From Lentzea tibetensis (GTDB lineage: Bacteria > Actinomycetota > Actinomycetes > Mycobacteriales > Pseudonocardiaceae), in NCBI RefSeq assembly GCF_007845675.1, contig NZ_VOBR01000028.1, positions 62,001-126,000 on the forward strand: a DNA stretch of 64,000 bases. The letters are read 5' to 3'. This document shows, piece after piece, positions 17,161 to 43,238 of this stretch. The stretch's first letter is position 1, and the number at the start of each line of letters is the position of its first letter. The translations under genes were made by a program, and so were the position numbers. The notes below the pieces were generated by a model that saw nothing but the letters and a program-made list of their open reading frames with translations, searched no databases and was not told the DNA's origin.

Positions 17161-18165
17161 ATGGTGAGGCGGCGCACGTTCCTGCTCGGGGCTTCGGCCC
17201 TTCCACTGCTCGGGGCCGCCGCGGCGACCCCGCTCGACGTCGGCCGAGCCGCCGCGGACCACTGGATCCGCACGGCGAGTCTCGGCGACAACAACTGGCA
17301 GAACGCGACGCTGCACAGCGGTGTGATGGCGCTCTACGAGGCGACCAGCGCCACCAAGTACCGCGACTACACGCTCAGCTGGGCGAACAAGCACGACTTC
17401 AAGCTGAGGACGTCGTCGAGCAACCCGCACTTCGCGGACTACCAGGCGGCCGGGCAGGCGTACCTCGACCTGTACGAGGACAAGCGCGAGCCGCAGCGGA
17501 TCGCCGCGCTGGTCAAGGAGATCGACGCGACGGTCGCGTCCGGGCGCGTCGACTACTGGTGGTGGGTGGACGCGCTGCACATGGCGATGCCGATCTTCGC
17601 CCGGCTCGGCAAGGCCGACTACGGCGACAAGCTGTACCGCTGGACGCGCACCCGGTTGTGGGACAACGGACTGTGGTGGCGGGACAAGAAGTACGTGGGC
17701 CGCAACGTCTACTGGTCGCGCGGCAACGGCTGGGCCATCGCGGCGCTCGCGAAGACGCTCGACGCGCTGCCCGCATCCTCGCCGTTCCGCGCCGGATACG
17801 TCGCCGACTTCCGGGCGATGGCGGCGTCGCTGGCTCGGGTGCAGCGCTCCGACGGGTTCTGGAACGTCAACCTGGGTGACCCGAAGGACCACCCAGGACC
17901 GGAGACGAGCGGCACCGCGTTCTTCACCTACGGACTGGCCTGGGGCGTCCGCGCCGGTGTGCTGGACGCGAGCGTCTACCGGCCGATCGCACTGCGCGGG
18001 TGGGACGGCATGGTGTCCGCGGCACTGCACTCGACCGGCAAGGTCGGGTACGTGCAGGGACAGGGCCAGCAGCCGTCCGACCACCAGCCGGTCAAACGGG
18101 ACGACACCGCCAACTTCGGCGTGGGCGCGTTCCTGCTGGCCTCCACCCAGGTGGCGCGGCTCTAA
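17161..18165 (+). CDS. Tat-exported unsaturated rhamnogalacturonyl hydrolase, family GH105
   Basis: 334 aa; ATG with GGTAGGAG upstream. Twin-arginine signal (VRRRTFLLGASALPLLGAAAA). The (alpha/alpha)6-barrel signatures of GH105/GH88 are visible: WWWVDALHMAMP (about 138-149, containing the catalytic Asp), YWSRGNGWAIAAL and ETSGTAFFTYGLAWG. Removes unsaturated galacturonyl residues from pectin oligosaccharides produced by lyases or hydrolases. Neighbour of the GH28 enzyme; together a small pectin-use locus. Confidence 0.88.
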   Translation: MVRRRTFLLGASALPLLGAAAATPLDVGRAAADHWIRTASLGDNNWQNATLHSGVMALYEATSATKYRDYTLSWANKHDFKLRTSSSNPHFADYQAAGQAYLDLYEDKREPQRIAALVKEIDATVASGRVDYWWWVDALHMAMPIFARLGKADYGDKLYRWTRTRLWDNGLWWRDKKYVGRNVYWSRGNGWAIAALAKTLDALPASSPFRAGYVADFRAMAASLARVQRSDGFWNVNLGDPKDHPGPETSGTAFFTYGLAWGVRAGVLDASVYRPIALRGWDGMVSAALHSTGKVGYVQGQGQQPSDHQPVKRDDTANFGVGAFLLASTQVARL

Positions 18166-19019
18166 CTCTGAGCGCGTTCCTCCTGACGCGCGCGCAGCGC
18201 GGCGCCAAGACGGGACATCACCGCGAAGTAGTGGGTCGGGGTGATCCGGGCGAGTGCGTCGAACACGTACGCGTCCGGTCCCACGAGTATCCGCGACTTC
18301 CCCCGCTCGACGCCGCGGTGGATGATCTCGGCCGCTTTGTCCGGTGTGGTCAGGGTGATGGCGTCGAAGTCCGCCGCCATGTCCTCGTGCGTCCGCCCGC
18401 GGCCCTCCGGGTCGTGGCGGATGCGCGCGTTGCGGATGATGTTCGTCCGGATGCCGCCCGGATGCACGGTCACCGCGCGCACGCCGGTGCCGAGCAGCTC
18501 CTGGCGCAGCGAGTCGGTGAAGCCGCGGATGGCGAACTTCGAGGCGCAGTAAGCACTCTGGTGCGGCATGCCGACCAGGCCGTACACGCTCGAGGTGTTC
18601 ACGATCACGCCGTCGTCCTGCGCGGTGAGGATCGGCAGGAACGCGCGGGTCCCGTTGACCACGCCCCAGAAGTTGATCTCGAACAGCCAGGCGTCGTCCT
18701 CGGGCACGGCGTCCTGGACGGCCGAGGCCGTCGCGACGCCCGCGTTGTTGAACACCGCCGCCAGCGGTGCGGGCAGCCATTCGCGAACCTCGTCGGCGAA
18801 CCGGTGCTGGTCGGCCGCGTCACGGACGTCCAGCACCCTGGTGAGCACCGGACCGCGCAACGACGCGGCGGTCTCGCTCAGGCCCGCCTCGTCCACGTCG
18901 GCCATGGCCACCGGGGATCCCAGGCCGGACAACCGTTGCGCCAGCGCGCGGCCGATGCCCGACGCGGCGCCGGTGATCATCACCGGGCGGCCTGCGATCC
19001 TGCGAGGTGGTCGGGGCAT
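18162..19019 (-). CDS. Short-chain dehydrogenase/reductase
   Basis: 285 aa; its ATG overlaps the P450 stop (TGATG). PVMITGAASGIGRALAQRL, FNNAG, NTSS and YCASKFAIRGFT (Tyr-x3-Lys) give a complete classical SDR. The C-terminal extension with KSRILVGPDAYVFD and the ITPTHYF motif is typical of the mycobacterial SDR group that pairs with P450s. Probably oxidises or reduces the product of the upstream P450. Its last bases overlap the tail of the GH105 gene by 4 bp. Confidence 0.87.
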   Translation of the reverse strand: MPRPPRRIAGRPVMITGAASGIGRALAQRLSGLGSPVAMADVDEAGLSETAASLRGPVLTRVLDVRDAADQHRFADEVREWLPAPLAAVFNNAGVATASAVQDAVPEDDAWLFEINFWGVVNGTRAFLPILTAQDDGVIVNTSSVYGLVGMPHQSAYCASKFAIRGFTDSLRQELLGTGVRAVTVHPGGIRTNIIRNARIRHDPEGRGRTHEDMAADFDAITLTTPDKAAEIIHRGVERGKSRILVGPDAYVFDALARITPTHYFAVMSRLGAALRARQEERAQS

Positions 19020-20311
19020 CAGTGCTCCTTGCCGTTGGGGGACTTCCGGTCGTGCACGATCGCCCGGCCACCGTGCGCCGGGGCGTTGGCGACGCCGCGC
19101 GAACGCCAGCGCTCGCCGGGTTCGCTCGTGGGCACCAGCGTGAGGTCGCGCAGCACGGTGCGGAGCACGACGTTCATCTCCATGGTCGCGAACGCGGCGC
19201 CGAGGCAGCGGCGCGTGCCACCGCCGAACGGGATCCACTGGTACAGGTCCGGTCGCGCGCCGAGGAACCGGGACGGATCGAACGCCCGCGCGTTCGGGAA
19301 CACCGACTCGTCCTCGTGGATCAGGGAGATGCTGACCAGCACGATGTAGCCCTTCGGCACGGTCCACCGCCCGAGCTGGAAGCCGTCGGTCTTCACCTGC
19401 CGTCCCACGAGGTCGATGACCGGACGGGTGCGCTGCACCTCGAGGATCGTCGCGTCGCGCAACGCGCTGCCGCCCGCGTCGACCTCGTGCGCGAGCGCCG
19501 CCAGCACATCGGGGTGGCGGCGCAGCCGTTCGACGGCCCAGGCCAGCGTCGTCGCCGTGGTCTCGTGCCCGGCCGCGAGCAGCGTGAGCAACTGGTCCGC
19601 GATGTCGCCGGTGCTCATCGCCGACCCGTCGTCGTAACGGCTCTGCAGCATCAGCGTGAGCACGTCGTCGCCGCCCTCCGCCTTGCTGATCAACCGGGCG
19701 ACGATCGCGTCGTACTCACGCCGCAGCGCGGCGAACCGGCCCCACGGCCCGCGCTCGCTCCTGGCCAGCGGCAGCACGGCCAGCCACGAGCCGAGCGAGA
19801 TGAGCCGGGGCAGCAGGTCCCGCAGCTGCGCGAACTCCGCGCCCTCCGCGCCGAACACCGCGCGCAGGATGATGTTCAGCGTGATCCGGGTCATCGACGG
19901 CAGCGTGGCGAAGACCTGGCCGCGCGGCCACGTCGCGAGCTCGCGCTCCGTCTCGTCCTCGACGATCCGCTCGTACGCCGCCAGCCTGCGGCCGTGGAAC
20001 GGCGGGGTGAGCAGCTTGCGCTGCCTGCGGTGCTCCTCCCCCACGAGCGAGAACAGCGAGCCGGGACCGAGCACGCGCCCGAGGTTCCGGTCGATCTTGT
20101 CCGTCGCGTCCGAGCCGGACAGGAACAGCTGCTTGATCTCGCCCGGATCGCTGATGACCAGTGCGCGGCCGAACGTCGGCAGGTTGACGGTGAACGCGTC
20201 CCCGTAGCGGTCGCGCATCCTCGGCATCCCGCGCCGCGGCACCGTCAGCGCGTAGGCGGCCTGCAGCAACCGCGGAGTGGCCGGGCCAGGAGGAAGCATC
20301 GCTGTCTTCAT
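19019..20311 (-). CDS. Cytochrome P450 (mycobacterial CYP135/138-like)
   Basis: 430 aa. I-helix AAGHETTAT, ExxR as EVQRTRP, and the haem Cys loop FGGGTRRCLGAAFA near residue 370. N-terminal LPPGPATPRLLQAA is the Pro-rich start seen in the mycobacterial CYP135/136/138 group. Monooxygenase with unknown substrate, needing external ferredoxin and reductase; no ferredoxin gene is adjacent. Translationally coupled to the SDR. Confidence 0.88.
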   Translation of the reverse strand: MKTAMLPPGPATPRLLQAAYALTVPRRGMPRMRDRYGDAFTVNLPTFGRALVISDPGEIKQLFLSGSDATDKIDRNLGRVLGPGSLFSLVGEEHRRQRKLLTPPFHGRRLAAYERIVEDETERELATWPRGQVFATLPSMTRITLNIILRAVFGAEGAEFAQLRDLLPRLISLGSWLAVLPLARSERGPWGRFAALRREYDAIVARLISKAEGGDDVLTLMLQSRYDDGSAMSTGDIADQLLTLLAAGHETTATTLAWAVERLRRHPDVLAALAHEVDAGGSALRDATILEVQRTRPVIDLVGRQVKTDGFQLGRWTVPKGYIVLVSISLIHEDESVFPNARAFDPSRFLGARPDLYQWIPFGGGTRRCLGAAFATMEMNVVLRTVLRDLTLVPTSEPGERWRSRGVANAPAHGGRAIVHDRKSPNGKEH

Positions 20312-20451: not shown

Positions 20452-21327
20452 ATGCACGCGGTCGGCCTCGTGCTGCACCCCCGGCGCAACTCCGAAGCCG
20501 CGGTGACGGCCGTGCTCGACTGGGCGTCGAACCGCGGCACCGAGATCCTCGGCATCGGCAACGAGATCGAACGGCTCAACTGCGCCGCGACCGCGGTGAC
20601 CGCCGCGGAGCTGGCCCGGCGGTCCGATCTGGTGGTCAGCCTCGGCGGCGACGGCACCATGCTGCGCGCGATGCGGCTGGCCGACGGGCAGGACGCCCCG
20701 GTGCTCGGCGTGAACCTGGGCAAGCTGGGCTTCCTGGCCGAGATCGACGTACCGGACCTCCCCGGCGCGCTCTCCGCCATCGACGGCCACGAGTTCCGCA
20801 TCGAGCCCCGGCTCGCGGTGGACGCCGTGCTCGCCGGCCGCACGGTCACCGCGTTCAACGACGTGGCGGTGGTGCGGGTACCGGGCGACGGCACGGCGGC
20901 GGTCGCGGTGTGCGTCTCCGGGCAGCCGTTCGTCAGCTACGCGGCCGACGCGGTCATCGTCGCCACCCCGACCGGGTCGACGGCCTACAGCTTCTCCGCT
21001 GGCGGGCCGATCACCAGCCCGGCCGTCGAGGCGCTGCTCGTCACGCCCGCCGCGCCGCACTCCGCGTACAGCCGCGGCGTGGTCCTGTCCGTGCACGACG
21101 AGCTGACGCTGGACATCCTGCCGTCCAGCGGACGACTCGCCGTCGAGGTGGACGGGGAGGTCGCCGGCTACGTCGAGCCGGGCGACCGGATCGAGCTGCG
21201 GGCACGCCCCGGTGCCGCGCGCGTGATCCGGCTCGGGATGACGACGTTCTACCAGCGCGCCCGGCGCAAGCTCCGGCTCACCGACTCGGCGGAGCTGCCG
21301 CCGAGCTGGCCCGACCCCAGCTCCTGA
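20452..21327 (+). CDS. nadK: NAD kinase
   Basis: 291 aa. GGDGTML (about 65-71) is the NAD-kinase diphosphate-binding motif, FNDVAVVR the conserved N-D pair, and TPTGSTAYSFSAGGPI the substrate loop. Phosphorylates NAD to NADP. It is probably a second copy, because the housekeeping nadK of actinobacteria normally sits beside recN. Its 3' end overlaps the convergent condensation gene by 79 bp, more than usual. Confidence 0.88.
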   Translation: MHAVGLVLHPRRNSEAAVTAVLDWASNRGTEILGIGNEIERLNCAATAVTAAELARRSDLVVSLGGDGTMLRAMRLADGQDAPVLGVNLGKLGFLAEIDVPDLPGALSAIDGHEFRIEPRLAVDAVLAGRTVTAFNDVAVVRVPGDGTAAVAVCVSGQPFVSYAADAVIVATPTGSTAYSFSAGGPITSPAVEALLVTPAAPHSAYSRGVVLSVHDELTLDILPSSGRLAVEVDGEVAGYVEPGDRIELRARPGAARVIRLGMTTFYQRARRKLRLTDSAELPPSWPDPSS

Positions 21328-22505
21328 ACCCGCCCCGGCAGAGCGTCCAGGACGTCGTCCACCACGTGCCTCGCCCACCCGTTCCCGTTGCCGCTCATGT
21401 GCGTCACCAGCGCACCGTCGACCGCGCTGCGGAACCGCAGGCCGAGGTTCTCGGTGCGCACGCTGTCCGGTGGTCCAGCGGCGTCCACCACGGTCGCGGA
21501 CACCGGTCCAAAAGAGACGGTGCCGGGCCGCAACTGGGGAACGAGCTCGACGAACGGCGGGAACCCGCCCGGCTGCGCGTAGTGGGGGTTCATCCGCATC
21601 GTCTCCCACCACGGGAACCGGGAGTACCGCTGCGCGCCGATGACGTGCTCGTTGACCAGCCGCAGGTCCGCGCACGCGTCGAGTGGCACGGCGAGGTTCA
21701 CCGGTACCAGGCACGGCCCGATCATCGTGCGCCAGCGCGGGTGGTCGCGGCGCAGGAACACGGTGGCGAACGGCAGGTGGTCCCCCGCCGACACGTGGCC
21801 GGCCATCGCATCGGTCAGCAACGCCAGCAGCAAGGCGAACGGGCTGCTCCGCTGGGCACGGGCGCGCGACTCCAGCAGGGTCGCGTCCGGCAGCACCACG
21901 CGCCTCGAAGCGAACGGTTCGCTCGACTGCGCGGGTGAGGCGAACCGCACGTCACCCAGCGCCCGGCACCACCACGCCTGGGCTTCCGCGTAACCGGAGC
22001 GCATGAGATCCGCTTCGTACACGGCGAACTCGCCGTACTGGCCGGTCGGGGCGGCGGGTGCCGCGGCTCCGCACCGCGCCGAGTAGAGCGCCGCCAGGTC
22101 GTCCAGGACGCGCCACAACGTCGACGCGTCGCTCAGCAGGTGGTGCACGTGCAGCGAGAGAAGCCGCTCTCGCGGGGAGAACCGGAGCTTCAGCGGGGTG
22201 TGCGCCGATGACGAGACCGGGGTGTGCAGCCACTCGGCCGGGCCGAGGACGTCGTCGACCACCGAGAAGTCGGGTTCGACGACGTCCTCCACCACCTGCA
22301 CCGGCCCGTCCAGGCGCGTGCGCAACAGCTCGTGCCTGGCCAGCAGATCCTCAGCCGCGGCGCGCAGCAGCTGGAGGTCTAGAGCACCGTCGAACCGCAC
22401 CACCGCGTTCATCGTGAACCACGGGCCGGTGAGGAGCCCCGGCCTGCTCCGGTCCAGCCAGAGGACGGAACGCTGCAACAGCGATGCGGGCCACGTCCTG
22501 CCCAT
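21249..22505 (-). CDS. Stand-alone condensation-domain protein (NRPS C-domain superfamily)
   Basis: 418 aa; ATG overlaps the glycosyltransferase stop. N-terminal half (LLQRSVLWLDRSRPGLL, LLARHELLRTRLDG) and active site HHLLSDAST at 121-129 match the condensation/CAT acyltransferase fold. The canonical HHxxxDG has its Gly replaced by Ala (HHLLSDA). No adenylation or carrier domain is attached, so it must act in trans, most likely taking an acyl group from the ACP encoded at 26592-26858. Last gene of the eight-gene operon; its 3' end overlaps nadK. Confidence 0.8.
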   Translation of the reverse strand: MGRTWPASLLQRSVLWLDRSRPGLLTGPWFTMNAVVRFDGALDLQLLRAAAEDLLARHELLRTRLDGPVQVVEDVVEPDFSVVDDVLGPAEWLHTPVSSSAHTPLKLRFSPRERLLSLHVHHLLSDASTLWRVLDDLAALYSARCGAAAPAAPTGQYGEFAVYEADLMRSGYAEAQAWWCRALGDVRFASPAQSSEPFASRRVVLPDATLLESRARAQRSSPFALLLALLTDAMAGHVSAGDHLPFATVFLRRDHPRWRTMIGPCLVPVNLAVPLDACADLRLVNEHVIGAQRYSRFPWWETMRMNPHYAQPGGFPPFVELVPQLRPGTVSFGPVSATVVDAAGPPDSVRTENLGLRFRSAVDGALVTHMSGNGNGWARHVVDDVLDALPGRVQELGSGQLGGSSAESVSRSLRRARW

Positions 22506-23554
22506 CAGGACTCCCCCGAGGTCAAGATCGAGCTGAGGTCGGGCACCGTCCGCGCGACGCCGAGCAACGCCTCGTGCAGCGACGCGAGCACGTCGGACGA
22601 ACATCCCTGCGCGCGCCATGCGTCGAGCGTGATCCCGAAGCCGAGTCGTTGCCACAGCTCGGAGTTGCGCTGCTCGTGCGCGCCGAACGGTTCGAGGAAC
22701 GCCAGCGGCGTCGCGGACCACAGCGAGTCCAGCAGCGTGCCACCGCCCGGTTTGCTCACCGCGGCCATCGACACCCGCATGAGGTCGAACGAGCTGTGGT
22801 GGCCGGTCCCGCGTGCGAAGGACGTGCGTGAACCGTGGCGCAGCCTGCCGAACGGCGGGTAGCCGTCGTCGATCCACGGGTGCCACGACGGGTCGATCAG
22901 GTGGTAGCGGACGCCGGGGTCGTCCAGCACGGCGTCGGACTCCTCGTGCGCGACGACGTCGAGTTCGAAGCCGGCGGTCAGCAGCTCGCTCGCGTGCGAG
23001 AGGTACGTGCCCATCCCCCAGCCACCACCGTGCAGCAGCAACGCGTGCGAGCGTTCTGACCACGGCACCGGTGGCTCGTGCGACACCGGGATCGTCAGCG
23101 GCAGCGTGCCCTGATCCGCGTCGGCCAGCCACACGCTCCCCGGTGGGCTCACGCCGCGGAAGGACGGCGATGCGGTCGAGTCCACGTGGCACACGTGCAC
23201 CTGCACGTCATCGCGCGAGGACGCATAACGCTCCACAATGGACAACCAGTACCCGGAGAACACGACGAACCGCCGCGCGCCGCGCGCGGCCCACTCCGCG
23301 AACAACGAGTCCACCCGCGAGTCCGAAACCGCGTCACCGGGGTTCGAAGCGACCCGCTGGCCGACGAGCGCCGCCCGGAAGTCGCGGTGGAACGCGGCCT
23401 TCATCGCCCGTGTCGTGGCCAGCTTCTCCTCCGGCAGCAACCGTTCCAGCACGGTCACCCGCGCCGGAACCCCTCGCTCGCGGAGGCGGTCGGCGAGCAG
23501 CAGGCCGGGCACGTGCACGCCGAGCGCCACCCCCGAGGTGAGGATCTCGATCAC
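22505..23554 (-). CDS. GT-B glycosyltransferase-like protein
   Basis: 349 aa from a GTG overlapping the kinase stop. Two Rossmann-like halves; the N-terminus (ILTSGVALGVHVPGLLLADR) resembles UDP-glycosyltransferases. LLHGGGWGMGTYL (about 170-182) and SKPGGGTLLDSLWSATPL (about 270-287) resemble the MurG/UGT donor-binding loop. A glycosyl-transfer role within the cluster is likely but the donor and acceptor are unknown. Members of this group are poorly characterised, so a non-glycosyl role is possible. Confidence 0.65.
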   Translation of the reverse strand: MIEILTSGVALGVHVPGLLLADRLRERGVPARVTVLERLLPEEKLATTRAMKAAFHRDFRAALVGQRVASNPGDAVSDSRVDSLFAEWAARGARRFVVFSGYWLSIVERYASSRDDVQVHVCHVDSTASPSFRGVSPPGSVWLADADQGTLPLTIPVSHEPPVPWSERSHALLLHGGGWGMGTYLSHASELLTAGFELDVVAHEESDAVLDDPGVRYHLIDPSWHPWIDDGYPPFGRLRHGSRTSFARGTGHHSSFDLMRVSMAAVSKPGGGTLLDSLWSATPLAFLEPFGAHEQRNSELWQRLGFGITLDAWRAQGCSSDVLASLHEALLGVARTVPDLSSILTSGES

Positions 23555-24468
23555 CGTTCCAGCCGTTCGACGGCGTCCCGCAGGTGGGCGTGCACCAGCT
23601 GGTTCAGCGGCCCGCCCGTGGTGCCGCGCGGCGTCGCCTCGACGGTCATGATCAGGTACAGGTACGCGCGGTACAGGTCCAGCCGGATCCGCGCCGACGA
23701 GGTGAGATCCAGGTGGTAGCCGGCGAGGAAGTCCGCGTCGTCCTCGATCAACCCGAAGAGCCCCAGCGACGGCATGTCCGCCAGCGGATCGCCCCAGAAC
23801 GACCGCTCGCCGTCGACGATCCCGGTGATGCGGTCACCGTCGACGAGCACGTTGCCCGGCCACAGGTCGAAGTGGACCAGCACCGGTTCCCGCACCTCGG
23901 CCAGCGTCTCGCGCGCCGCGGTCAGCACACCCCGCACGCGGTCGGCGGACACCGGCAGGTCGACGCCGTAGAAGGCCGCGTCGTCGAGCACCGCGGTCAT
24001 CATGGACGTGAACGCCGTCGGCCAGTCCGGTGCCCGTTCTCCCTGCGGGTAGCCGAAAGCGGTACCGGTCACCCGGTGCAGCCGGGCCACGGTCGCACCG
24101 AGCTGCGAGCGAAGCGCGCCGCGGTGCGGTGCGAGCTGTTCCGCGTGCTCGAACCAGTTCACGCCGGGGCACTCGGTCATCAGCAACCAGTCCGACGGCA
24201 CGATCTCCTTGGCGGTGTCCAGGTGCACCACCTCAGGCACCGGCAGGACGCCGGCCGCGGCGCGGTAGAACGCGGCCTCGGTCGACAACAGGTCGTGCTC
24301 GTACGACAGGCCTCCGGCCTTCGGCGCGACCTTGAGCACCCACCGGCGGTCGCCCGCCGCGACCCGGTAGGTGGAGTTGAAGGTGCCGCCGCCGATCTCG
24401 TGCACCTCGACGGGGCCGGGAACGCCAGCGGCGCGCAGCAGTTCGATCAGCTTCCAGGCGTCGGTCAC
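23551..24468 (-). CDS. APH-fold phosphotransferase (aminoglycoside/choline kinase-like)
   Basis: 305 aa; GTG overlaps the oxidoreductase stop by 4 bp. Lys-containing VLKVAPK (about 45), catalytic loop VHFDLWPGNVL (about 205-215, HxDxxxxN) and IVDGERSFWGDPLADM (metal-binding Asp) are intact. ATP-dependent phosphorylation of a small hydroxylated molecule, perhaps a sugar or amino alcohol of the pathway, or self-resistance by phosphorylating the product. The choice between the two cannot be made from sequence. Confidence 0.8.
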   Translation of the reverse strand: MTDAWKLIELLRAAGVPGPVEVHEIGGGTFNSTYRVAAGDRRWVLKVAPKAGGLSYEHDLLSTEAAFYRAAAGVLPVPEVVHLDTAKEIVPSDWLLMTECPGVNWFEHAEQLAPHRGALRSQLGATVARLHRVTGTAFGYPQGERAPDWPTAFTSMMTAVLDDAAFYGVDLPVSADRVRGVLTAARETLAEVREPVLVHFDLWPGNVLVDGDRITGIVDGERSFWGDPLADMPSLGLFGLIEDDADFLAGYHLDLTSSARIRLDLYRAYLYLIMTVEATPRGTTGGPLNQLVHAHLRDAVERLER

Positions 24469-25415
24469 CGGGCCTCCTCGGCGTTCTCGTGGATCTCGGC
24501 CATCAGCGCGATGCGCTCGGCGGCGTCGCCGAGGTCGGGACGTGCCCCACCGGACACGAGCGCGTGGAACCGGCGCAGCTGCTCGGTGTAGTAGGCCATC
24601 GCGGGGAAGGACTCGATCTCGGTGCGGCCGTCGGCCCACCGGACGGCCAGGTTGAGCGGCAGCGCTCCCGCGGTCGGGCGGAGGAAGTTCCGGACGCGGA
24701 CGCTCGCGTGCTCGAACCAGTACTCGTGCTCCGCGACGTGCGTGGCGTCCCACGAGCATTCGAGCACCGCGGACACCTCGCCCGGCAGGTCCAGGCTCGC
24801 GGTGAACGCCACGTCGACGCCGCCGATGCTGGACTTCCTGCCGTTGCCGCGCGCACCACCCAGTCCGACGGTGGCCTGCACGGCCTGGAGCCAGTAGCAG
24901 GCGGCGTCGAGGAAGATGCCGCCGCCGAGCTCGGGACGCAGCCGGTAACCGCCTGCGGGAAGGCCGAACCGGATCCGCGTCCGCATCGCGCGCAACCGGC
25001 CCCACCGCGAGCCGGCCCGCACGGCCTCCTGCCACGGATGTCCCGCGGTGGGCAGGGCCTCCACCACGTGCACACCCGAGGCGGCCTCCGCCAGCGAAGC
25101 CACCTCGTCCGCGTTGAGACACAAGGGTTTCTCGACCAGCACGTGCTTGCCAGCCGACGCGGCGGCGACCGCCCAGCGGTGGTGGGCCGAGTTGTGCAGC
25201 GACACGTAGACGGTGTTCACCGCCGGGTCCTCGACCAGTGCTGCGTAGTCCTGGTGCACGTGCGGCACACCGTGCTTCTCCGCGAACACCCGCGCGCGAT
25301 CGGGGTCGCTCGCCGCCACCGCGACCACACCGACGTCCGGGTTGTCGCGGCTCGGTGCGACGACGGCGCGTTCCGCGATGCCCGTCGCACCGATGAGCCC
25401 GACCTCAAGCCGCAT
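24465..25415 (-). CDS. Gfo/Idh/MocA family oxidoreductase
   Basis: 316 aa. NAD(P)-binding LEVGLIGATGIAERAVV at 3-19, and VLVEKPLC near 95-102 carries the conserved EKP Lys. The C-terminal beta-sheet substrate domain contains GGGIFLDAACYWLQA. Typically oxidises or reduces a sugar, inositol or cyclitol hydroxyl. It overlaps the ATP-grasp gene by 11 bp. Suggests that a sugar-like or cyclitol building block is made in this operon. Confidence 0.85.
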   Translation of the reverse strand: MRLEVGLIGATGIAERAVVAPSRDNPDVGVVAVAASDPDRARVFAEKHGVPHVHQDYAALVEDPAVNTVYVSLHNSAHHRWAVAAASAGKHVLVEKPLCLNADEVASLAEAASGVHVVEALPTAGHPWQEAVRAGSRWGRLRAMRTRIRFGLPAGGYRLRPELGGGIFLDAACYWLQAVQATVGLGGARGNGRKSSIGGVDVAFTASLDLPGEVSAVLECSWDATHVAEHEYWFEHASVRVRNFLRPTAGALPLNLAVRWADGRTEIESFPAMAYYTEQLRRFHALVSGGARPDLGDAAERIALMAEIHENAEEAR

Positions 25416-26595
25416 GGATCGTTCCTCGCGGCAGCACGCCCGCACCCGCGAACGACGAGAGCACGAGGTCGCGCAGTCCCAGCACGTCGCGCGGCCGGCA
25501 GCGGAGCGCGCAGTGGACCCGTCCGGACGGCGATGCGACGACACCACCCCCGAGCACGACGCACCCCGCACCGGGTCCGCCCCGGTAGAGCAGGCCGTCG
25601 GAAGCGAGCGCCCGCACGAGGTCGGCCACGCCGGTTCCGGGTGGCACGCCGAGCTCGACCTGCCACAGGTGCGACCGCAGGTCACCGTCACCGAAGCGCC
25701 GGTCGAGCTCGAGCGACAGCCGGCCGAGCGAGTACCGCGCGTTGATCTCCAGCACGGGTACCAGCGTGTCGTCCGCGAGCAGCATCGCGTCGATCGACAG
25801 CGGTCCGAAGTAGCCGGCCTCCGCCACGCACTCGGCCACCGCGAGCACCGCCTGCCGCCAGCCCTGCTCCTCGGCCACCGCCATGAGCCCGTCGCTCAGC
25901 GGTCCCGAGCCCGCGTACCGGAAGCCGCGGTTGCGCACCACCTGCGCGCCGAGCCACCGCCAGGCACCGTCCTGGGTCACCTCACCGTGCGCCGACAGGT
26001 CGTGCCGCTTGGCGAACAGCGGCTGGACGACCAGCTCCACCCGCTTGCTCTGGCGGGCGAGAACCCGAGTGACCGCCCGCAGCACGCCCGGTGAGGAGAC
26101 CTCGACCGACCCGCGCCCGGACACCCCGTACGGATCCTTGACCACCGCCGGACCGTCCAGGTCGGACACGAGCTGCTCCACCGCGGCCGCGGAGCGGGCG
26201 ACGACCCCGGCACCCGGCAGCCCCAGTTCGACGACCAGCTCGTTCGACCACGTCTTGGAGTTGACCCGCGCGACGGCGTCCACCGCGGGCAACCGCGTCG
26301 TCGACAGCGCGGCGACCTCAGTGGTGACCGCGTACGGCACGATCTCCTTGTCGAGCAAGAACCCCACGTGAGAACCGGAGTGGTGGCGGAACCGCAGCCC
26401 CGCCTCGTCCCACGACTCCAGCAGCACCGGATCCAGCGGGTTGCGCGTGACCAGCGTGTCGTCCGGCGAGCAGAACCCGGCCAGCAGCTCGTCCATCGCG
26501 GAGACGTCGCCGGAGCCGGGTACGGCGGGCAGGTTCGCGAGATCAGCCGGCCGCCACGCGCGCTCGGCGTCGAACGATCCCAGCCAGTACCTCAT
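25405..26595 (-). CDS. ATP-grasp ligase, candidate aminoacyl-ACP ligase
   Basis: 396 aa. ATP-grasp core: NSKTWSNELVVELGLP, AVVKDPYGVSGRGS (the Lys and glycine-rich lid) and LEINARYSLGRLSLEL (metal ligands EIN). The start overlaps the stop of the ACP gene. In butirosin biosynthesis the ATP-grasp enzyme BtrJ charges the ACP BtrI with glutamate; the gene pairing here suggests a similar loading of an amino or hydroxy acid onto the neighbouring ACP (inference). Confidence 0.75.
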   Translation of the reverse strand: MRYWLGSFDAERAWRPADLANLPAVPGSGDVSAMDELLAGFCSPDDTLVTRNPLDPVLLESWDEAGLRFRHHSGSHVGFLLDKEIVPYAVTTEVAALSTTRLPAVDAVARVNSKTWSNELVVELGLPGAGVVARSAAAVEQLVSDLDGPAVVKDPYGVSGRGSVEVSSPGVLRAVTRVLARQSKRVELVVQPLFAKRHDLSAHGEVTQDGAWRWLGAQVVRNRGFRYAGSGPLSDGLMAVAEEQGWRQAVLAVAECVAEAGYFGPLSIDAMLLADDTLVPVLEINARYSLGRLSLELDRRFGDGDLRSHLWQVELGVPPGTGVADLVRALASDGLLYRGGPGAGCVVLGGGVVASPSGRVHCALRCRPRDVLGLRDLVLSSFAGAGVLPRGTIHAA

Positions 26596-26858
26596 CGGGC
26601 CACCGCGGCGCCGAGGCCGGAGAGCCAGGTGGCGAAGTGGCGGACCGACCGCACGTGGCTCAGGTCCAGCGACTCGTAGTCCAGATCGACGTCGAACACG
26701 TCCTCGACCCCGAGCAGGAACGAGATCATCTGCAACGAGTCGAGTCCGTACTCCTCGACGAGGTCGGCGTCGTCGCCGATCTCGTCGGCGGTGGTGCCGT
26801 TCGCCAGCACCCCGGCGAGCACGGTCCTGATCTTCCGATGGACGGCGTCCACGCTCAC
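26592..26858 (-). CDS. Acyl carrier protein
   Basis: 88 aa from a GTG that overlaps the radical SAM stop. Four-helix ACP with the phosphopantetheine site YGLDSLQMISFLLG, Ser41. An upstream ATG would give 33 poorly conserved residues and is not used. No phosphopantetheinyl transferase is nearby, so it would be activated in trans. Central carrier for the operon: flanked by the radical SAM enzyme and the ATP-grasp ligase. Confidence 0.88.
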   Translation of the reverse strand: MSVDAVHRKIRTVLAGVLANGTTADEIGDDADLVEEYGLDSLQMISFLLGVEDVFDVDLDYESLDLSHVRSVRHFATWLSGLGAAVAR

Positions 26859-28030
26859 ACTCCGTTCAGGTAGAGGAGGATGCACTTCGAGCAGACCGGC
26901 ATCATGCCGCTCGCGGACAGGATCTCCCGCACGGAGCGGAACGCACTGCTCTGCCACAGTTCATCCACAGCGGACTCGTACAGGTTGCCGACGACGAACT
27001 CCGGGAAGAACTTGCACGAGCTGACGTTGCCGTCGGCGTGCACCTCGAGCCGGTTGGACACCGCGAGGCACTTGTTGCGGTGCTGGGCGGGCCGTGACGT
27101 GCCGAGGATGAAGTCCTCCACCTCGTCGGCCTCGAGCTGCGGCTGGTAGCGCACCCGCACGTGCCACGGCCTGCTCGCCAGCCTGGCCATCGACTCCCGC
27201 AGCACGGGCAGCTGCTCCGGCGGGAGCTGGTAGGTGTAGGAGTGCCACGTCGGCTTGCGCGTGCCGGTGTCGTTGTCGAGCCAGGCGAACGAGCGCTCGT
27301 ACAGCTCGTCCATCGCGCCCGCGACCTCAGGGCTGATGTACCACGGGAACTGGAAGTACACCGTGTTGACGCCCAGTTCCTCTGCCCACTCCATGAACTC
27401 GTACATCTTGCCGACGGTGACGTGGGAGACCATGCAGGACAACGAGACTTCGCCACCGAACGAACCGTCGCGCTTGAGGTCGAGCATCCGCTGGATGTTC
27501 TCGGTCGTCCTGCGGAAGGTCCCCTTGCCGCGCAACGCCTCGTGGTCGTCACCGAGCCCGTCGAGGCTGACCAGCAGATTGAGGTTCTCCCCGATCCGCA
27601 GCAAGTCGTCGAGCTTCCGCTTGAACAGCAACCCGTTCGTGCACATGTTGACCGTGCGCGGGTAGCGCTCCAGCAGGTCGACGACCTCGTTGAACCTGGT
27701 GTGCATGAGGGGTTCACCACCCCAGAGGAACAGCTTCGACCGGCGCGGGGCGGTCGCCCGCAGCACGTCCTCGACGACCTCCATCGCCAGCTCGGTGCGC
27801 TGCTTGACGGGGCTGAAGTCGCGGAAGAAGCCCTGTTCGTTCCACTGGTAGCAGTGCGTGCAGCGCAGGTTGCAGCGGTAGGTGAGCTGCAGGCTCACCT
27901 CCTGCGGCAGCGGCGCGGCGTAGCCGGGGTCGGCGAGCAGGTTCTTGCGGGCCGAGGAGCGGATGGACACCGTGTGCTTGATGTCCGCGAACTCCTTGAC
28001 GTTCAGCGTCCGAGTGGTCCTCGGGTGCAT
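26855..28030 (-). CDS. Radical SAM enzyme with SPASM-like C-terminal cluster domain
   Basis: 391 aa. The CxxxCxxC motif is CNLRCTHC (Cys53, 57, 60), binding the SAM [4Fe-4S] cluster; GGEP follows (LFLWGGEPL). The C-terminus has Cys321, 339, 380 and 383 (KCLAV, SSCKFFPEF, CSKC), giving one auxiliary cluster as in twitch/SPASM enzymes. Such enzymes modify peptides (RiPPs) or oxidise alcohols of aminocyclitols (BtrN). No precursor peptide is visible nearby, and an ACP is next door, so a carrier-bound or free small-molecule substrate is favoured. Confidence 0.85.
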   Translation of the reverse strand: MHPRTTRTLNVKEFADIKHTVSIRSSARKNLLADPGYAAPLPQEVSLQLTYRCNLRCTHCYQWNEQGFFRDFSPVKQRTELAMEVVEDVLRATAPRRSKLFLWGGEPLMHTRFNEVVDLLERYPRTVNMCTNGLLFKRKLDDLLRIGENLNLLVSLDGLGDDHEALRGKGTFRRTTENIQRMLDLKRDGSFGGEVSLSCMVSHVTVGKMYEFMEWAEELGVNTVYFQFPWYISPEVAGAMDELYERSFAWLDNDTGTRKPTWHSYTYQLPPEQLPVLRESMARLASRPWHVRVRYQPQLEADEVEDFILGTSRPAQHRNKCLAVSNRLEVHADGNVSSCKFFPEFVVGNLYESAVDELWQSSAFRSVREILSASGMMPVCSKCILLYLNGV

Positions 28031-29298
28031 CAGTCCTCCTCAGCGTCGTTCGGAATCCCCTGCGGGAGCAGCAGAACAGCGACGGCGATGCACACCCCGC
28101 CCACCGCGATCACCGAGACCAGCGTGCGCGAGCCACCGACCACGTCCCGGAGGACGTCGGTGACGATTCCGGCGGTCAACGCCCCCAGCGGGACGGCCGA
28201 CGAGGCCAGCACCCGCGCGGTGGCGAGGACCGTGCTCTGCCGGTCAGCAGGCGCCAGCCGCTGCCGGACGCTCAGGTTGATCACGGCCCACGCCGGGATC
28301 CACACGGCCGACAACGCCCTGATCGTGAACAGCACCGCGACCGGCGCCGGGACGACCAGGCACAACGGAACCGCGCACCACACCAGGCCTTCCAGCGCCG
28401 TGCAACGAAGCGCGCCGCGCAGTCCCAGTGCACGAACCGCGGGCCCGACGAACACCACGCCCGCCAACGCGCACGCCGCGCCCACCGCGAGCAGCAGGCC
28501 GGTCGCGGTGCTGCTCATGCGGAGCTCGCGGTAGGCGTACAACAGCAACGCCGTGTCCACCACACCGGTGCCGAACATCCGCACGGCCGAGCTGAGCGCC
28601 AACCGGCCGAGCACGGGATGCTCACTGGTGTAACGGAATCCCTCGCGCACCCGCTGGAACACCGGCTCACGGGAGCGAACCGGTTCCGGGTCGGCGGAGA
28701 TCCGGCTGCGCCCGAAGGCCGACACCAGGAACGGCAGTGCTCCCAGCGCCAGCGCCACGACCGGACCGAAGGCGCCGATGACCGCGCCCGCCGCCGCGGG
28801 TCCGGCGAGCTTCGACGCGCTGTCCGTGCTCTGCAGCCGGGAGTTGGCCCCCAGCAACCGTTCCGGTCCGACGAGTGCGGGCAGGTACATCTGGCCGGAG
28901 ATGTCGGTGAACACCGTGGCGACCCCGGCGACGGCCACCGCGGCCACGAGCACGCCCGCCGAGTGGACCCACCCGGCGGCCACCGCCAGCGCGACCCCCG
29001 CGAACACGCAGAACCGCACCAGCTCCGTGCCCACCATCACCCGCCGCACCCGCGCGTGCGCGAGCAACGCCCCCGCGAACAGGCCGAACAGCGGATAGGC
29101 CAGCCATCCCGCGGCGGCCACCGCGCCCACCTGCGCGTCCGAGGCGTCCAGCAGCAGGATGGCGGTCGTCGGCATGATGAAGCCGGTGAGCCGGTCGCCG
29201 ACGGCACCCGCCGTCTGGCTCGACCAGAACAGCGGGAAGTCCCGGTCGGACCCCGCTGTTCGGTCTCGTCGGCCCATCTCGGCTTCGACAGCCAACAC
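28030..29298 (-). CDS. MFS transporter, probable product exporter
   Basis: 422 aa; GTG start with GAGAGGG a few bp upstream. About 12 hydrophobic helices, with the MFS_3/enterobactin-exporter-like N-terminus FWSSQTAGAVGDRLTGF. First gene of the eight-gene minus-strand operon and overlapping the radical SAM gene by 1 bp, which fits an exporter or self-resistance pump for the cluster product. Confidence 0.85.
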   Translation of the reverse strand: MLAVEAEMGRRDRTAGSDRDFPLFWSSQTAGAVGDRLTGFIMPTTAILLLDASDAQVGAVAAAGWLAYPLFGLFAGALLAHARVRRVMVGTELVRFCVFAGVALAVAAGWVHSAGVLVAAVAVAGVATVFTDISGQMYLPALVGPERLLGANSRLQSTDSASKLAGPAAAGAVIGAFGPVVALALGALPFLVSAFGRSRISADPEPVRSREPVFQRVREGFRYTSEHPVLGRLALSSAVRMFGTGVVDTALLLYAYRELRMSSTATGLLLAVGAACALAGVVFVGPAVRALGLRGALRCTALEGLVWCAVPLCLVVPAPVAVLFTIRALSAVWIPAWAVINLSVRQRLAPADRQSTVLATARVLASSAVPLGALTAGIVTDVLRDVVGGSRTLVSVIAVGGVCIAVAVLLLPQGIPNDAEED

Positions 29299-29373: not shown

Positions 29374-30267
29374 CTAGAGCGACGCGGGCACGACGATCGT
29401 CGGCGACCAGGGGGTGCAGGTGGAGCGACCGAGGAACCGCTTGGCGCAGGCCTCGATCGTGAACCCGTACATGCGCGCGGGATCGGCGCCCCGCAACGTG
29501 AAGCGGCGGGCCGCGACCTCGACGCCCTTGGTCGGAGGTGAGCGTTCCTCCCACCACTGGATGTTGAACGCGTCGGCGTCCGGAAAGCTCCACACGACCG
29601 TGACGGTGTCCGCTGTGCGTTCGACGGACACGACGCACGGCCGGTCCGCGGTCGGGCAGTCGCCGACCCGGCTGACGGGTGCGTAGCGTTCGCCGAGGAC
29701 GATCCGCCGCAGGTGGACACCGGTCGACGTGATGGGCCCGCCGACGAGGTGACCGCCCTGGAAGTTCAGGAACCGGAGCTCTCCGTCGGGGCGCACGTAG
29801 TCGACCGGTGGCTCCAGCGCCGCGAGGTCGGCGTGCCACGCCAGCGCGAGCTCGTGCGGGATGATCACCAAGCCCAGTCCCGGAATCCGGTACGAGTCCT
29901 CCCAGATGACGCCCCTGTCACCAACGGGCGTGTGCGAGTAGCCGGTCACGTCGGTCGCCGTGTCCCCCAGGGGACAGTGGCCGTGCGTCGTGGCCAGCTC
30001 GCGCACCTCGGGGTCGACCGCGAACGCGGGACACCGCAACCGGGACCGCGCGTCGACCACCGCCGACTCCGCGACCATCCCGCTCACCGCGCCGAGCGCC
30101 ACGACCAGCGCGATCGCCTGCGCCGCCGGCCACGCCCTCGACCGCCGCGGCAGGTGGCCAGCGCCTTCCGCCTGCTGGGCAGGCCCGGTTTCGACGTGTG
30201 CGGCGCCGCCGACGCGTCCGCCGCGCTCGGGGCGTGCGTCATGGAGGTCGAGGCCGCGCTGGACCAC
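29374..30267 (-). CDS. Secreted or membrane-anchored protein of unknown function
   Basis: Up to 297 aa. A hydrophobic segment AWPAAQAIALVVALGAVSG (about 45-63) looks like a signal anchor. The rest is a Cys-containing extracellular region (RLRCPAFAVDP, HGHCPLGD, GDCPTADRPC, IEACAKRF, RSTCTPWSP) ending in a fibronectin-III-like segment (VTVVWSFPDADAFNIQWWEE). The start is uncertain: the GTG at 30267 is the only one that keeps the whole helix, but the first 40 residues look non-coding and overlap an antisense reading frame. GTG 30102 is the fallback. Upstream of the MFS operon on the same strand, 75 bp away. Confidence 0.55.
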   Translation of the reverse strand: MVQRGLDLHDARPERGGRVGGAAHVETGPAQQAEGAGHLPRRSRAWPAAQAIALVVALGAVSGMVAESAVVDARSRLRCPAFAVDPEVRELATTHGHCPLGDTATDVTGYSHTPVGDRGVIWEDSYRIPGLGLVIIPHELALAWHADLAALEPPVDYVRPDGELRFLNFQGGHLVGGPITSTGVHLRRIVLGERYAPVSRVGDCPTADRPCVVSVERTADTVTVVWSFPDADAFNIQWWEERSPPTKGVEVAARRFTLRGADPARMYGFTIEACAKRFLGRSTCTPWSPTIVVPASL

Positions 30268-42230: not shown

Positions 42231-43238
42231 GTGTCCCTGGCGACCGATGTCCTCAACGCCCCCCGTTCGGCGCACGACGTGCTGGAGTGGAGCAGGCAGA
42301 CCGTCACCCCGCGGCTCCAGTCGGCCGTCGCCACGCTGCCGACGACCACGCGCCGCATCGCCGGCTACCAGTTCGGCTGGTCGGACGCGCGCGAACGCAC
42401 CTCGGCACTCCGCTCGGCACTGACGATGCTGTCCGCGTCGGCCGTCGGCGGCACGCCGGAGCAGGCACTCGCCGCCGCGGCCGCGGTCGAACTGGCGCAC
42501 CAGCATTGTCAGCTGCACGACGACGTGACCGACGGCGTCCGCACCCGGCGCGACCGGGCGACGGCGTGGACCGTGTTCGGCGCCGAGCCGGCGCTCGAGG
42601 CGGCGGACGCGTTGCTGGCACAGGCTTTCACCGTCCTCGCGGGCAGCGGCCACCCGAGCGCCGTGCTGGGCGTGCGGATGCTCAACACCGCCATGCTGGC
42701 GGTGGTCGACGGCCAGATCGAGGACCTCGCACTCGACGCACCCCGCCCGCCGGACCTGGCCACGTCCGTGCGGAACGCCGCGTCCACGGCGGGCGCACTG
42801 ATGGGGTGCGCGTGCGCGATGGGTGCGGTGTTCGGCGGCGGGAGCCAGGCGCAGATCGAGCACCTGCGGGTGTTCGGCGCGCACGTGGGCCTGGTGTTCC
42901 AGCACGTCGAGGACCTGATCGGCATCTGGGGCTCGCCGCTGCACGCCGACCTGCACCGGCGCCGGATGTCGCTGCCCGTGGTGGCGGCCATGACGTCGGG
43001 CACCGCCGAAGGCCGCGAGCTCGCCGAGCTGTACTCCGGTGACGAACCGCTGTCGGACGCCGAGGCCCATCGCGCGGCCGAGTTGGTCGACCTCGCAGGC
43101 GGGCGCACGTGGAGCCTGCGCGAGGTCGACTCCCTGCTGGTGCAGGCCCTGCGCCGGTTGCGGTCCGCGCAGCCGGGGGCCACCGCGGCCGACGAGCTGT
43201 TCGCGCTCGCCCAGCAGGCGGCGCGGCACGATCACTGA
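42231..43238 (+). CDS. Polyprenyl diphosphate synthase family protein, altered second Asp motif
   Basis: 335 aa from a GTG. First Asp-rich motif HDDVTDGVRTRRDR (Asp97, 98, 101) is canonical and sits beside ELAHQHCQLH. The second motif, normally FQxxDDxxD, reads FQHVEDLIGIWG, retaining only one Asp position. The fold is that of trans-isoprenyl diphosphate synthases; the changed motif may alter product length or make this a terpene-synthase-like enzyme. No other isoprenoid gene is adjacent. Confidence 0.82.
   Translation: MSLATDVLNAPRSAHDVLEWSRQTVTPRLQSAVATLPTTTRRIAGYQFGWSDARERTSALRSALTMLSASAVGGTPEQALAAAAAVELAHQHCQLHDDVTDGVRTRRDRATAWTVFGAEPALEAADALLAQAFTVLAGSGHPSAVLGVRMLNTAMLAVVDGQIEDLALDAPRPPDLATSVRNAASTAGALMGCACAMGAVFGGGSQAQIEHLRVFGAHVGLVFQHVEDLIGIWGSPLHADLHRRRMSLPVVAAMTSGTAEGRELAELYSGDEPLSDAEAHRAAELVDLAGGRTWSLREVDSLLVQALRRLRSAQPGATAADELFALAQQAARHDH

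Follow-up and report, generated by a model that had tools for sequence, protein, structure and literature searches.

The 64,000-nt stretch of DNA analysed here, from the soil actinomycete Lentzea tibetensis (the window; GCF_007845675.1, NZ_VOBR01000028.1 positions 62,001 to 126,000) carries eight packed genes on the minus strand at 21249–29298 that form an accessory biosynthetic unit. We propose, with moderate confidence, that this unit is a secondary-metabolite operon in which an acyl building block is made on a dedicated acyl carrier protein (ACP) and then handed to an acceptor. The original prediction of a biosynthetic operon, in which an ACP and an ATP-grasp protein stand with redox enzymes and a stand-alone condensation enzyme, agrees with protein families, shared genomes and clustering.

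Gene content and distribution of the operon

From its first gene onwards, the operon comprises:

28030..29298, minus strand: MFS exporter-like transporter, first gene, GTG start (PF07690, 3e-15)
26855..28030, minus strand: radical SAM protein, 391 aa (PF04055, 4e-18; PF13186 [SPASM], 2e-11)
26592..26858, minus strand: stand-alone acyl/aminoacyl carrier protein, 88 aa, GTG start (PF00550, 2e-8)
25405..26595, minus strand: ATP-grasp ligase of the PGM1/BesA type (no Pfam match; profile searches and AlphaFold2 model)
24465..25415, minus strand: Gfo/Idh/MocA NAD(P)-dependent oxidoreductase (PF01408, 3e-20)
23551..24468, minus strand: APH-fold small-molecule kinase, GTG start (PF01636, 4e-30)
22505..23554, minus strand: GT-B fold glycosyltransferase (GT; no Pfam match; profile searches and AlphaFold2 model)
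21249..22505, minus strand: stand-alone condensation-domain protein with HHxxxD (PF00668, 6e-15)

All eight one-strand genes, said beforehand to overlap by 1–11 bp, are present, with successive overlaps of 1, 4, 4, 11, 4, 4 and 1 bp that leave no intergenic room for an extra gene. GC at third codon positions is 0.90–0.95 in each of them, and coding statistics, together with synteny in relatives, rule out chance or misannotation. The Pfam search took the longest open frames of the window proteins as queries; the start sites adopted were GTG 26858 (ACP), ATG 25415 (Gfo/Idh), GTG 24468 (APH), GTG 23554 (GT), and ATG 22505 (condensation). In this search, the expectation that no NRPS, PKS or RiPP precursor would be found is true of the eight operon proteins. 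A promoter and terminator scan, uninformative at such GC, found none.

Other genes were considered as further members. The NAD kinase was rejected, being found in 25/25 Lentzea genomes. A P450 and an SDR gene (18162–20311) are unlikely members, showing 83% DNA identity in a relative (G193) that is without the operon.

Among 298 family genomes, the 24 with a strong match to the radical SAM protein are exactly those with a strong match to the ATP-grasp and to the GT protein. Separate occurrence of the genes in relatives, which would have spoken against the original prediction, was thus not seen for these three in the family. Radical SAM, ACP, ATP-grasp, and GT genes are clustered in all 24 family loci retrieved. 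In 13 of these relatives, every one of the eight genes has a homologue (with identical gene order in seven), and an MFS homologue is likewise found in 13 of the 24. A housekeeping operon was rejected, given strong radical SAM matches in just 2/25 Lentzea genomes and in 24 of the 298 family genomes, and no DNA match of more than 150 bp to 21.3–29.3 kb in the DNA retrieved around the conserved NAD kinase gene of four Lentzea genomes.

Clusters with the same core extend to several actinomycete families and Paenibacillus. We compared 80 named loci (80 of 106 relatives), chosen by the radical SAM protein, whose own presence in 80/80 is therefore by construction. Counting as a match any protein with E ≤ 1e-3 to a profile built from the 24 family loci (which admits weak, perhaps non-orthologous proteins) and as absence a lack of matches in the retrieved stretch (some stretches ending at a contig end), the ACP was present in 80/80 loci, the GT in 75, and the ATP-grasp protein in 72, eight of the latter matches being under 80 bits. 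At this wider scale, co-occurrence thus held throughout for the ACP, but the ATP-grasp gene is absent from eight stretches and the GT gene from five. The Gfo/Idh, APH, and condensation genes are each absent from half or more of the loci. Beside some clusters, we observed further genes: diterpene genes adjoin the cluster in three genomes, Kutzneria sp. CA-103260 carries two radical SAM/ACP loci separated by 217 kb, of which one has diterpene genes, and a luciferase-type monooxygenase gene does so in Lentzea fradiae (L095). For a Nonomuraea A domain (L100), alignment yielded no usable amino-acid code.

The radical SAM enzyme and the carrier protein

The cysteines of the CX3CX2C motif (C53, C57, C60) and a C-terminal set of four (C321, C339, C380, C383) are kept in 81/81 aligned rows of the radical SAM protein, in which eight residues remain after C383. 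Judged from its sequence, the auxiliary domain is a one-cluster twitch as in BtrN, rather than a full SPASM set, with the four cysteines as putative cluster ligands. The likeness to BtrN drawn earlier holds in part: the match to BtrN is confined to residues 314–383 (E 3e-4), and the enzyme, at 391 aa, is longer than solved BtrN chains (~270 aa). Among the best 25 of 76 matched NCBIfam families, the top match is a twitch-domain family (100.6 bits vs a cut-off of 170) and none exceeds its cut-off, and a RiPP-type radical SAM enzyme was rejected on this basis. Phylogenetic analysis of this protein separates Actinomycetota from Bacillota with full support.

The radical SAM and ACP genes lie on the same strand in 80/80 loci and at most 150 bp apart in 53, and Ser41 of the ACP (in GLDSLQ) is kept in 81/81 aligned rows. 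The host genome contains 113 PP-binding matches, the operon ACP included, and a PP-binding domain lies within 3 kb of one of its 16 radical SAM matches, namely the operon's own. This genetic tie bears on a split, butirosin-like logic, in which the radical SAM enzyme, GT, Gfo/Idh, and kinase would build a free sugar or cyclitol core, the ATP-grasp protein and ACP would prepare an acyl side chain, and the condensation protein would join both, the radical SAM enzyme never touching the ACP. We regard such a division of labour as possible, if doubtful: sugar and aminoglycoside enzymes are among the Gfo/Idh and APH relatives, and the twitch-domain relative BtrN is described in PMC9012708 as oxidising the free cyclitol 2-deoxy-scyllo-inosamine. 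However, the ACP is the sole gene found beside the radical SAM gene in every locus—including one from Kutzneria (L066) whose retrieved stretch lacks any match to the ATP-grasp, GT, Gfo, and APH proteins—and Pfam finds no cyclitol or sugar-nucleotide synthesis gene in the operon.

Conservation differs markedly between the proteins. Across 19 loci with all seven genes plus the window (the condensation gene being interrupted in L091), median pairwise identity is 82.9% for the radical SAM protein, 62.7% for the GT, 57.5% for the ACP, 55.6% for Gfo/Idh, 52.1% for the ATP-grasp protein, 49.8% for the APH kinase, and 38.8% for the condensation protein. Such a gradient, with the radical SAM protein at its top and the condensation protein at its bottom, is what an unchanging building block and differing acceptors would produce.

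Candidate loading, tailoring, and release enzymes

The AlphaFold2 model of the ATP-grasp protein (mean pLDDT 94.1) matches ATP-grasp ligases, and residues K114, K153, E283, N285, and R287, which we take to be catalytic, are invariant in 34 sequences. The presence of an ATP-grasp enzyme next to the ACP (4 bp overlap) is thereby confirmed, but the original comparison with a carrier-loading pair needs amending: by sequence profile and structure, the nearest relatives over its whole length are the amino-acid/peptide ligases PGM1, BesA, and 8YND (17–20% identity in structural alignments). PGM1 and BesA form amide bonds between amino acids and are not known to load carriers. Peptide ligation is therefore an alternative to ACP loading. 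For scleric acid biosynthesis, PMC6335953 proposes that an ATP-grasp enzyme catalyses a condensation and not the loading of an ACP.

On this alternative, which we consider unlikely, the ATP-grasp protein would make a small dipeptide, or else a gamma-glutamyl-type protecting group. The ACP would be loaded in trans by an enzyme encoded outside the operon, and the GT and the APH kinase would modify the product and so shield the producer from it. GH3-family genes near 11 loci (protein cluster f17; Pfam on one member) could fit self-protection by glycosylation and deglycosylation, and the best solved relative of the APH kinase is hygromycin-B 4-O-kinase (4e-8). Yet by Pfam the operon lacks any other carboxylate-activating enzyme, the GT is better conserved than the ATP-grasp protein, and the APH kinase scores far under the NCBIfam cut-offs for known resistance kinases (best, APH(3'), 45.3 vs 205 bits). 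A role of the GT or the kinase in self-resistance is conceivable and counts against our main proposal. The kinase keeps its HxDxxxxN...D motif in 36/36 rows, and the Gfo/Idh protein keeps its EKP motif in 38/38; dihydrodiol dehydrogenase (4e-22) and sugar 3-ketoreductase (3e-16) are among the solved structures related to the latter.

The GT model (mean pLDDT 91.6) has the two-Rossmann GT-B fold and matches GT-B glycosyltransferases. Among the solved relatives of the condensation protein are Txo2 (6e-45), 4ZNM ('C-domain type II', presumably SgcC5; 3e-33), and phthiocerol dimycocerosyl transferase (7e-14). In the 26 rows aligned (the window and the 25 named loci that score over 300 bits, with 12 weaker loci excluded), the first H of HHxxxD is kept in 24 and the second H and the D in all. 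Two profile matches—that of the GT to processive diacylglycerol glucosyltransferase and that of the condensation protein to the dimycocerosyl transferase—would suit a glycolipid or cell-envelope pathway with no secreted metabolite, in which the GT acts on a lipid and the condensation protein is a PapA-type acyltransferase. This is highly improbable: the matches to NRPS condensation domains are far stronger, the operon has a transporter gene and no fatty-acid activating gene, and its occurrence in the family is sporadic.

Sorted by candidate release enzyme, the 80 loci fall into non-overlapping groups with a condensation protein (37, of which 12 are under 300 bits), with f10 or f32 proteins (30), with a KASIII-like protein (8), or with none of these (5). 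Because release-enzyme types mostly track phylum, the lack of overlap between them does not count as independent evidence. The labels f10, f13, f17, f32, and f33 denote blastp protein clusters, of which a few members each were run against Pfam. Likeness to BtrH was seen in 2/19 f10 members (best E 1.4e-4, under Pfam's cut-off), and some Paenibacillus relatives of the cluster encode a protein weakly matching BtrH_N. The f32 proteins gave no match in this type of comparison, profile comparison detected no relation between f10 and f32, and PDB searches with either returned nothing convincing. AMP-binding genes occur in 3/8 loci without and 5/72 loci with the ATP-grasp gene (Fisher p 0.03), a weak contrast as two of the three loci that have an AMP-binding gene but no ATP-grasp gene belong to sister species.

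Proposed pathway and known systems

Returning to assembly on the carrier, we envisage the following sequence. The ATP-grasp enzyme, consistent with its fold, would activate an amino (or hydroxy) acid at its carboxylate and load it onto the ACP, and the GT-B enzyme would then put a sugar on the unit. The twitch radical SAM enzyme, its cofactor ligands assigned by conservation, may next oxidise the unit on the ACP by two electrons, the likeliest site being a sugar carbinol or a side-chain C-H. Where present, Gfo/Idh might reduce the resulting ketone to give an epimerised unit, and the kinase may phosphorylate the product or a precursor for self-protection or processing. Finally, as its family suggests, the condensation protein would transfer the finished acyl unit, carried until then by the ACP, onto an acceptor amine or alcohol, with the MFS protein probably exporting the product.

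Parts of this scheme resemble butirosin biosynthesis, in which a stand-alone ACP (BtrI) works with an ATP-grasp protein (BtrJ), and a PLP decarboxylase and a flavin monooxygenase act on the ACP-bound residue. Shared are the ACP/ATP-grasp pair (likened to BtrI/BtrJ by role), a twitch radical SAM enzyme, and acyl transfer to another molecule. By Pfam on its eight proteins, however, the Lentzea operon has a condensation protein instead of a BtrH-type acyltransferase, lacks the PLP decarboxylase and the luciferase-type/flavin monooxygenase (PMC2922099 names BtrK and BtrO in the butirosin pathway), and adds a GT, Gfo/Idh, and kinase; its radical SAM gene, unlike that of BtrN, is tied to an ACP. In contrast to PGM1, BesA, and 8YND, the ATP-grasp protein is encoded beside an ACP and a radical SAM gene. 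With free-standing 4ZNM, the condensation protein shares a single domain and HHxxxD, but Lentzea-type proteins diverge strongly among clusters (39% median). Compared by annotation, the Pbo cluster of Pseudomonas syringae (PMC8473136) shares radical SAM, ATP-grasp, carrier, condensation, and MFS proteins. Its radical SAM protein is, however, annotated as lysine 2,3-aminomutase-like, adenylation-domain and ketosynthase proteins are present, and the gene rows examined include no GT, Gfo/Idh, or kinase.

Our search of the open-licence PMC literature, which is no proof of absence, found no description of this gene set. A bolder reading, which we consider rather unlikely, is an undescribed class of carrier-dependent twitch radical SAM enzymes that would oxidise a glycosylated aminoacyl-ACP, the unit being passed by interchangeable transferases (condensation, BtrH-like, or KASIII-like) to unrelated scaffolds, diterpenes included, in Actinomycetota, Bacillota, and Lysobacter. 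The combination of radical SAM, ACP, ATP-grasp, and GT genes offers a genetic handle for genome mining, and the compact 8-kb operon suits heterologous expression; its product is worth isolating. If our main reading is true, the operon would allow a direct test of radical SAM oxidation on carrier-bound glyco-acyl units, and would belong to a sizeable, product-orphan family of gene clusters marked by a highly conserved, ACP-tied radical SAM enzyme.

An accessory eight-gene unit in Pseudonocardiaceae

The eight genes form one unit, encoded on the minus strand of a 9.36-Mb actinomycete genome. The original prediction described them as overlapping by 1–11 bp on one strand, and the measured overlaps (1, 4, 4, 11, 4, 4, and 1 bp) agree with this; third-position GC is 0.90–0.95 in every one of the eight. 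A Pfam scan called families for six of the proteins and none for the ATP-grasp protein or the glycosyltransferase (GT), which were identified by profiles and models instead.

Genes of the operon (window coordinates, strand, product, basis)
28030–29298, minus, MFS protein, Pfam family call
26855–28030, minus, radical SAM protein, Pfam family call
26592–26858, minus, ACP, Pfam family call
25405–26595, minus, ATP-grasp protein, profiles and models
24465–25415, minus, Gfo/Idh protein, Pfam family call
23551–24468, minus, APH-fold kinase, Pfam family call
22505–23554, minus, GT, profiles and models
21249–22505, minus, condensation protein, Pfam family call

We searched 298 genomes of the family, a sample from a larger group. 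Strong matches to the ATP-grasp (best E per genome ≤ 6e-61), radical SAM (E ≤ 1e-40), and GT (E ≤ 1e-20) proteins fell in exactly the same 24 genomes, in each of which the radical SAM and GT match starts lay 3.4–6.9 kb apart; another 32 genomes held weaker ATP-grasp matches (best 7.6e-25). The family loci fetched (24, from 23 genomes) all contained the radical SAM, ACP, ATP-grasp, GT, and condensation genes, accompanied by APH in 23, Gfo in 21, and an MFS homologue in 13. Gene order was identical to the window in seven of them, and the condensation gene stood ahead of APH in six; five loci (L057, L059–L062) carried these two genes on the opposite strand, their condensation proteins showing 27–30% identity. 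In L052, which belongs to the genome that also gave L091 (Kibdelosporangium philippinense), the match to the condensation gene at ~11.5–13.9 kb came in two pieces ~1.2 kb apart, so that this copy looks interrupted.

Within Lentzea, strong radical SAM matches occurred in two of 25 genomes, whereas the NAD kinase adjoining the operon was present in all 25; the operon is therefore accessory. DNA fetched around that NAD kinase in four relatives gave no match to the operon. The kinase (20452–21327, plus strand) is a second paralogue that converges on the operon, overlapping the end of the condensation gene by 79 bp, and most of its Lentzea matches stop near query residue 283, short of the C-terminal tail of the window copy. 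Upstream of the operon lies a gene (29374–30267, minus strand) whose product matches an fn3 domain weakly (5e-5, short of the cut-off); 2/25 Lentzea genomes have this gene.

Related loci in a wider set of genomes

Scanning named genomes yielded 106 radical SAM relatives, of which 80 were kept: 40 from Actinomycetota (Pseudonocardiaceae, Streptomyces, Micromonospora, Kribbella, Nonomuraea, and others), 39 from Bacillota (38 Paenibacillus and one Thermoflavimicrobium), and one from Lysobacter. Counted as profile hits at E ≤ 1e-3, ACP was present in all 80 loci, GT in 75, ATP-grasp in 72, Gfo in 40, condensation protein in 37, APH in 36, and MFS in 26. The ACP and radical SAM genes always shared a strand, at most 150 bp apart in 53 loci and never more than 2.7 kb; as a rough control, of the 16 radical SAM matches across the operon's own genome, a single one had a PP-binding domain no more than 3 kb away, namely the operon's own. 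Paenibacillus-type relatives carry ABC-2 exporter genes, with both permease families in 28 loci (Pfam on one locus). One Paenibacillus subtype (L124, L126, L135, L115, L136, and related loci) has KASIII-like genes alongside Gfo-ACP-radical SAM, together with an additional radical SAM/SPASM gene (assigned by Pfam in L126). The radical SAM protein of L065 (NRRL B-16535, labelled Rhodococcus rhodnii) falls within Kibdelosporangium in the tree, and this record may be mislabelled.

In eight of the 80 fetched stretches no ATP-grasp hit was present. An AMP-binding gene lay near three of these eight versus five of the 72 with ATP-grasp (Fisher p 0.03). Carboxylate activation may therefore be the function that is exchanged between loci, but two of the three come from sister Nonomuraea species.

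Sorted by possible release enzyme, the loci divide without overlap into 37 with the condensation protein, 30 with proteins of two blastp clusters (f10 and f32), eight with a KASIII-like protein (Pfam on one member), and five with none. Interchangeable transfer enzymes are only suggestive here, since the types largely track phylum, f10 resembles the butirosin protein BtrH weakly (in two of the 19 members scanned, with a best E of 1.4e-4), f32 gave no relevant match, and comparing f10 with f32 revealed no resemblance.

Terpene synthase, squalene-hopene-type cyclase, and P450 genes adjoin the unit in Kutzneria sp. CA-103260 (L066), Lentzea fradiae (L095), and Umezawaea endophytica (L096), as judged by Pfam on the L095 proteins and two L066 proteins and by similarity for L096. 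A flippase-like LPG_synthase_TM protein also adjoins the radical SAM/ACP/condensation genes in all three. L066 is the second Kutzneria radical SAM locus, 217 kb from L069; the two are sister radical SAM/ACP copies in the tree, one with the full operon and the other, L066, lacking hits to ATP-grasp and GT within the stretch that was fetched. At a distance of 13 kb from the operon, the window itself encodes a polyprenyl synthase (42231–43238, plus strand; PF00348, 6e-32); it shares 44% identity with the prenyl-synthase portion of a prenyl/terpene synthase fusion at L066.

Relation to butirosin and proposed function

A literature search of open-licence papers returned no description of this gene set. 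Its parts are of known kinds, and their combination resembles butirosin logic. However, BtrH and the side-chain tailoring enzymes that are features of butirosin were not found in the operon, and on these grounds we do not class it as a member of that pathway.

Folds, motifs, and gene linkage are what the data show, and from them we infer every reaction: the operon most likely builds an ACP-borne acyl unit that would be tailored and then transferred. The ATP-grasp protein would load the acyl unit onto the ACP; in scleric acid biosynthesis, another ACP-using pathway, an ATP-grasp enzyme is proposed to condense two acids and not to load the ACP (PMC6335953). The GT would then glycosylate the ACP-borne unit, the radical SAM enzyme would oxidise it, Gfo/Idh would adjust it after oxidation, and the condensation protein would move the finished acyl unit. 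The GH3 genes close to 11 loci (Pfam on one) would also suit a role of glycosylation in self-protection.

Conservation is graded across the operon: median pairwise identity over 20 rows was 82.9% for the radical SAM protein, far above every other operon protein (GT 62.7, ACP 57.5, Gfo 55.6, ATP-grasp 52.1, APH 49.8, and condensation protein 38.8%). Such a gradient would be expected if the radical SAM reaction is constant and the acceptor used by the condensation protein varies.
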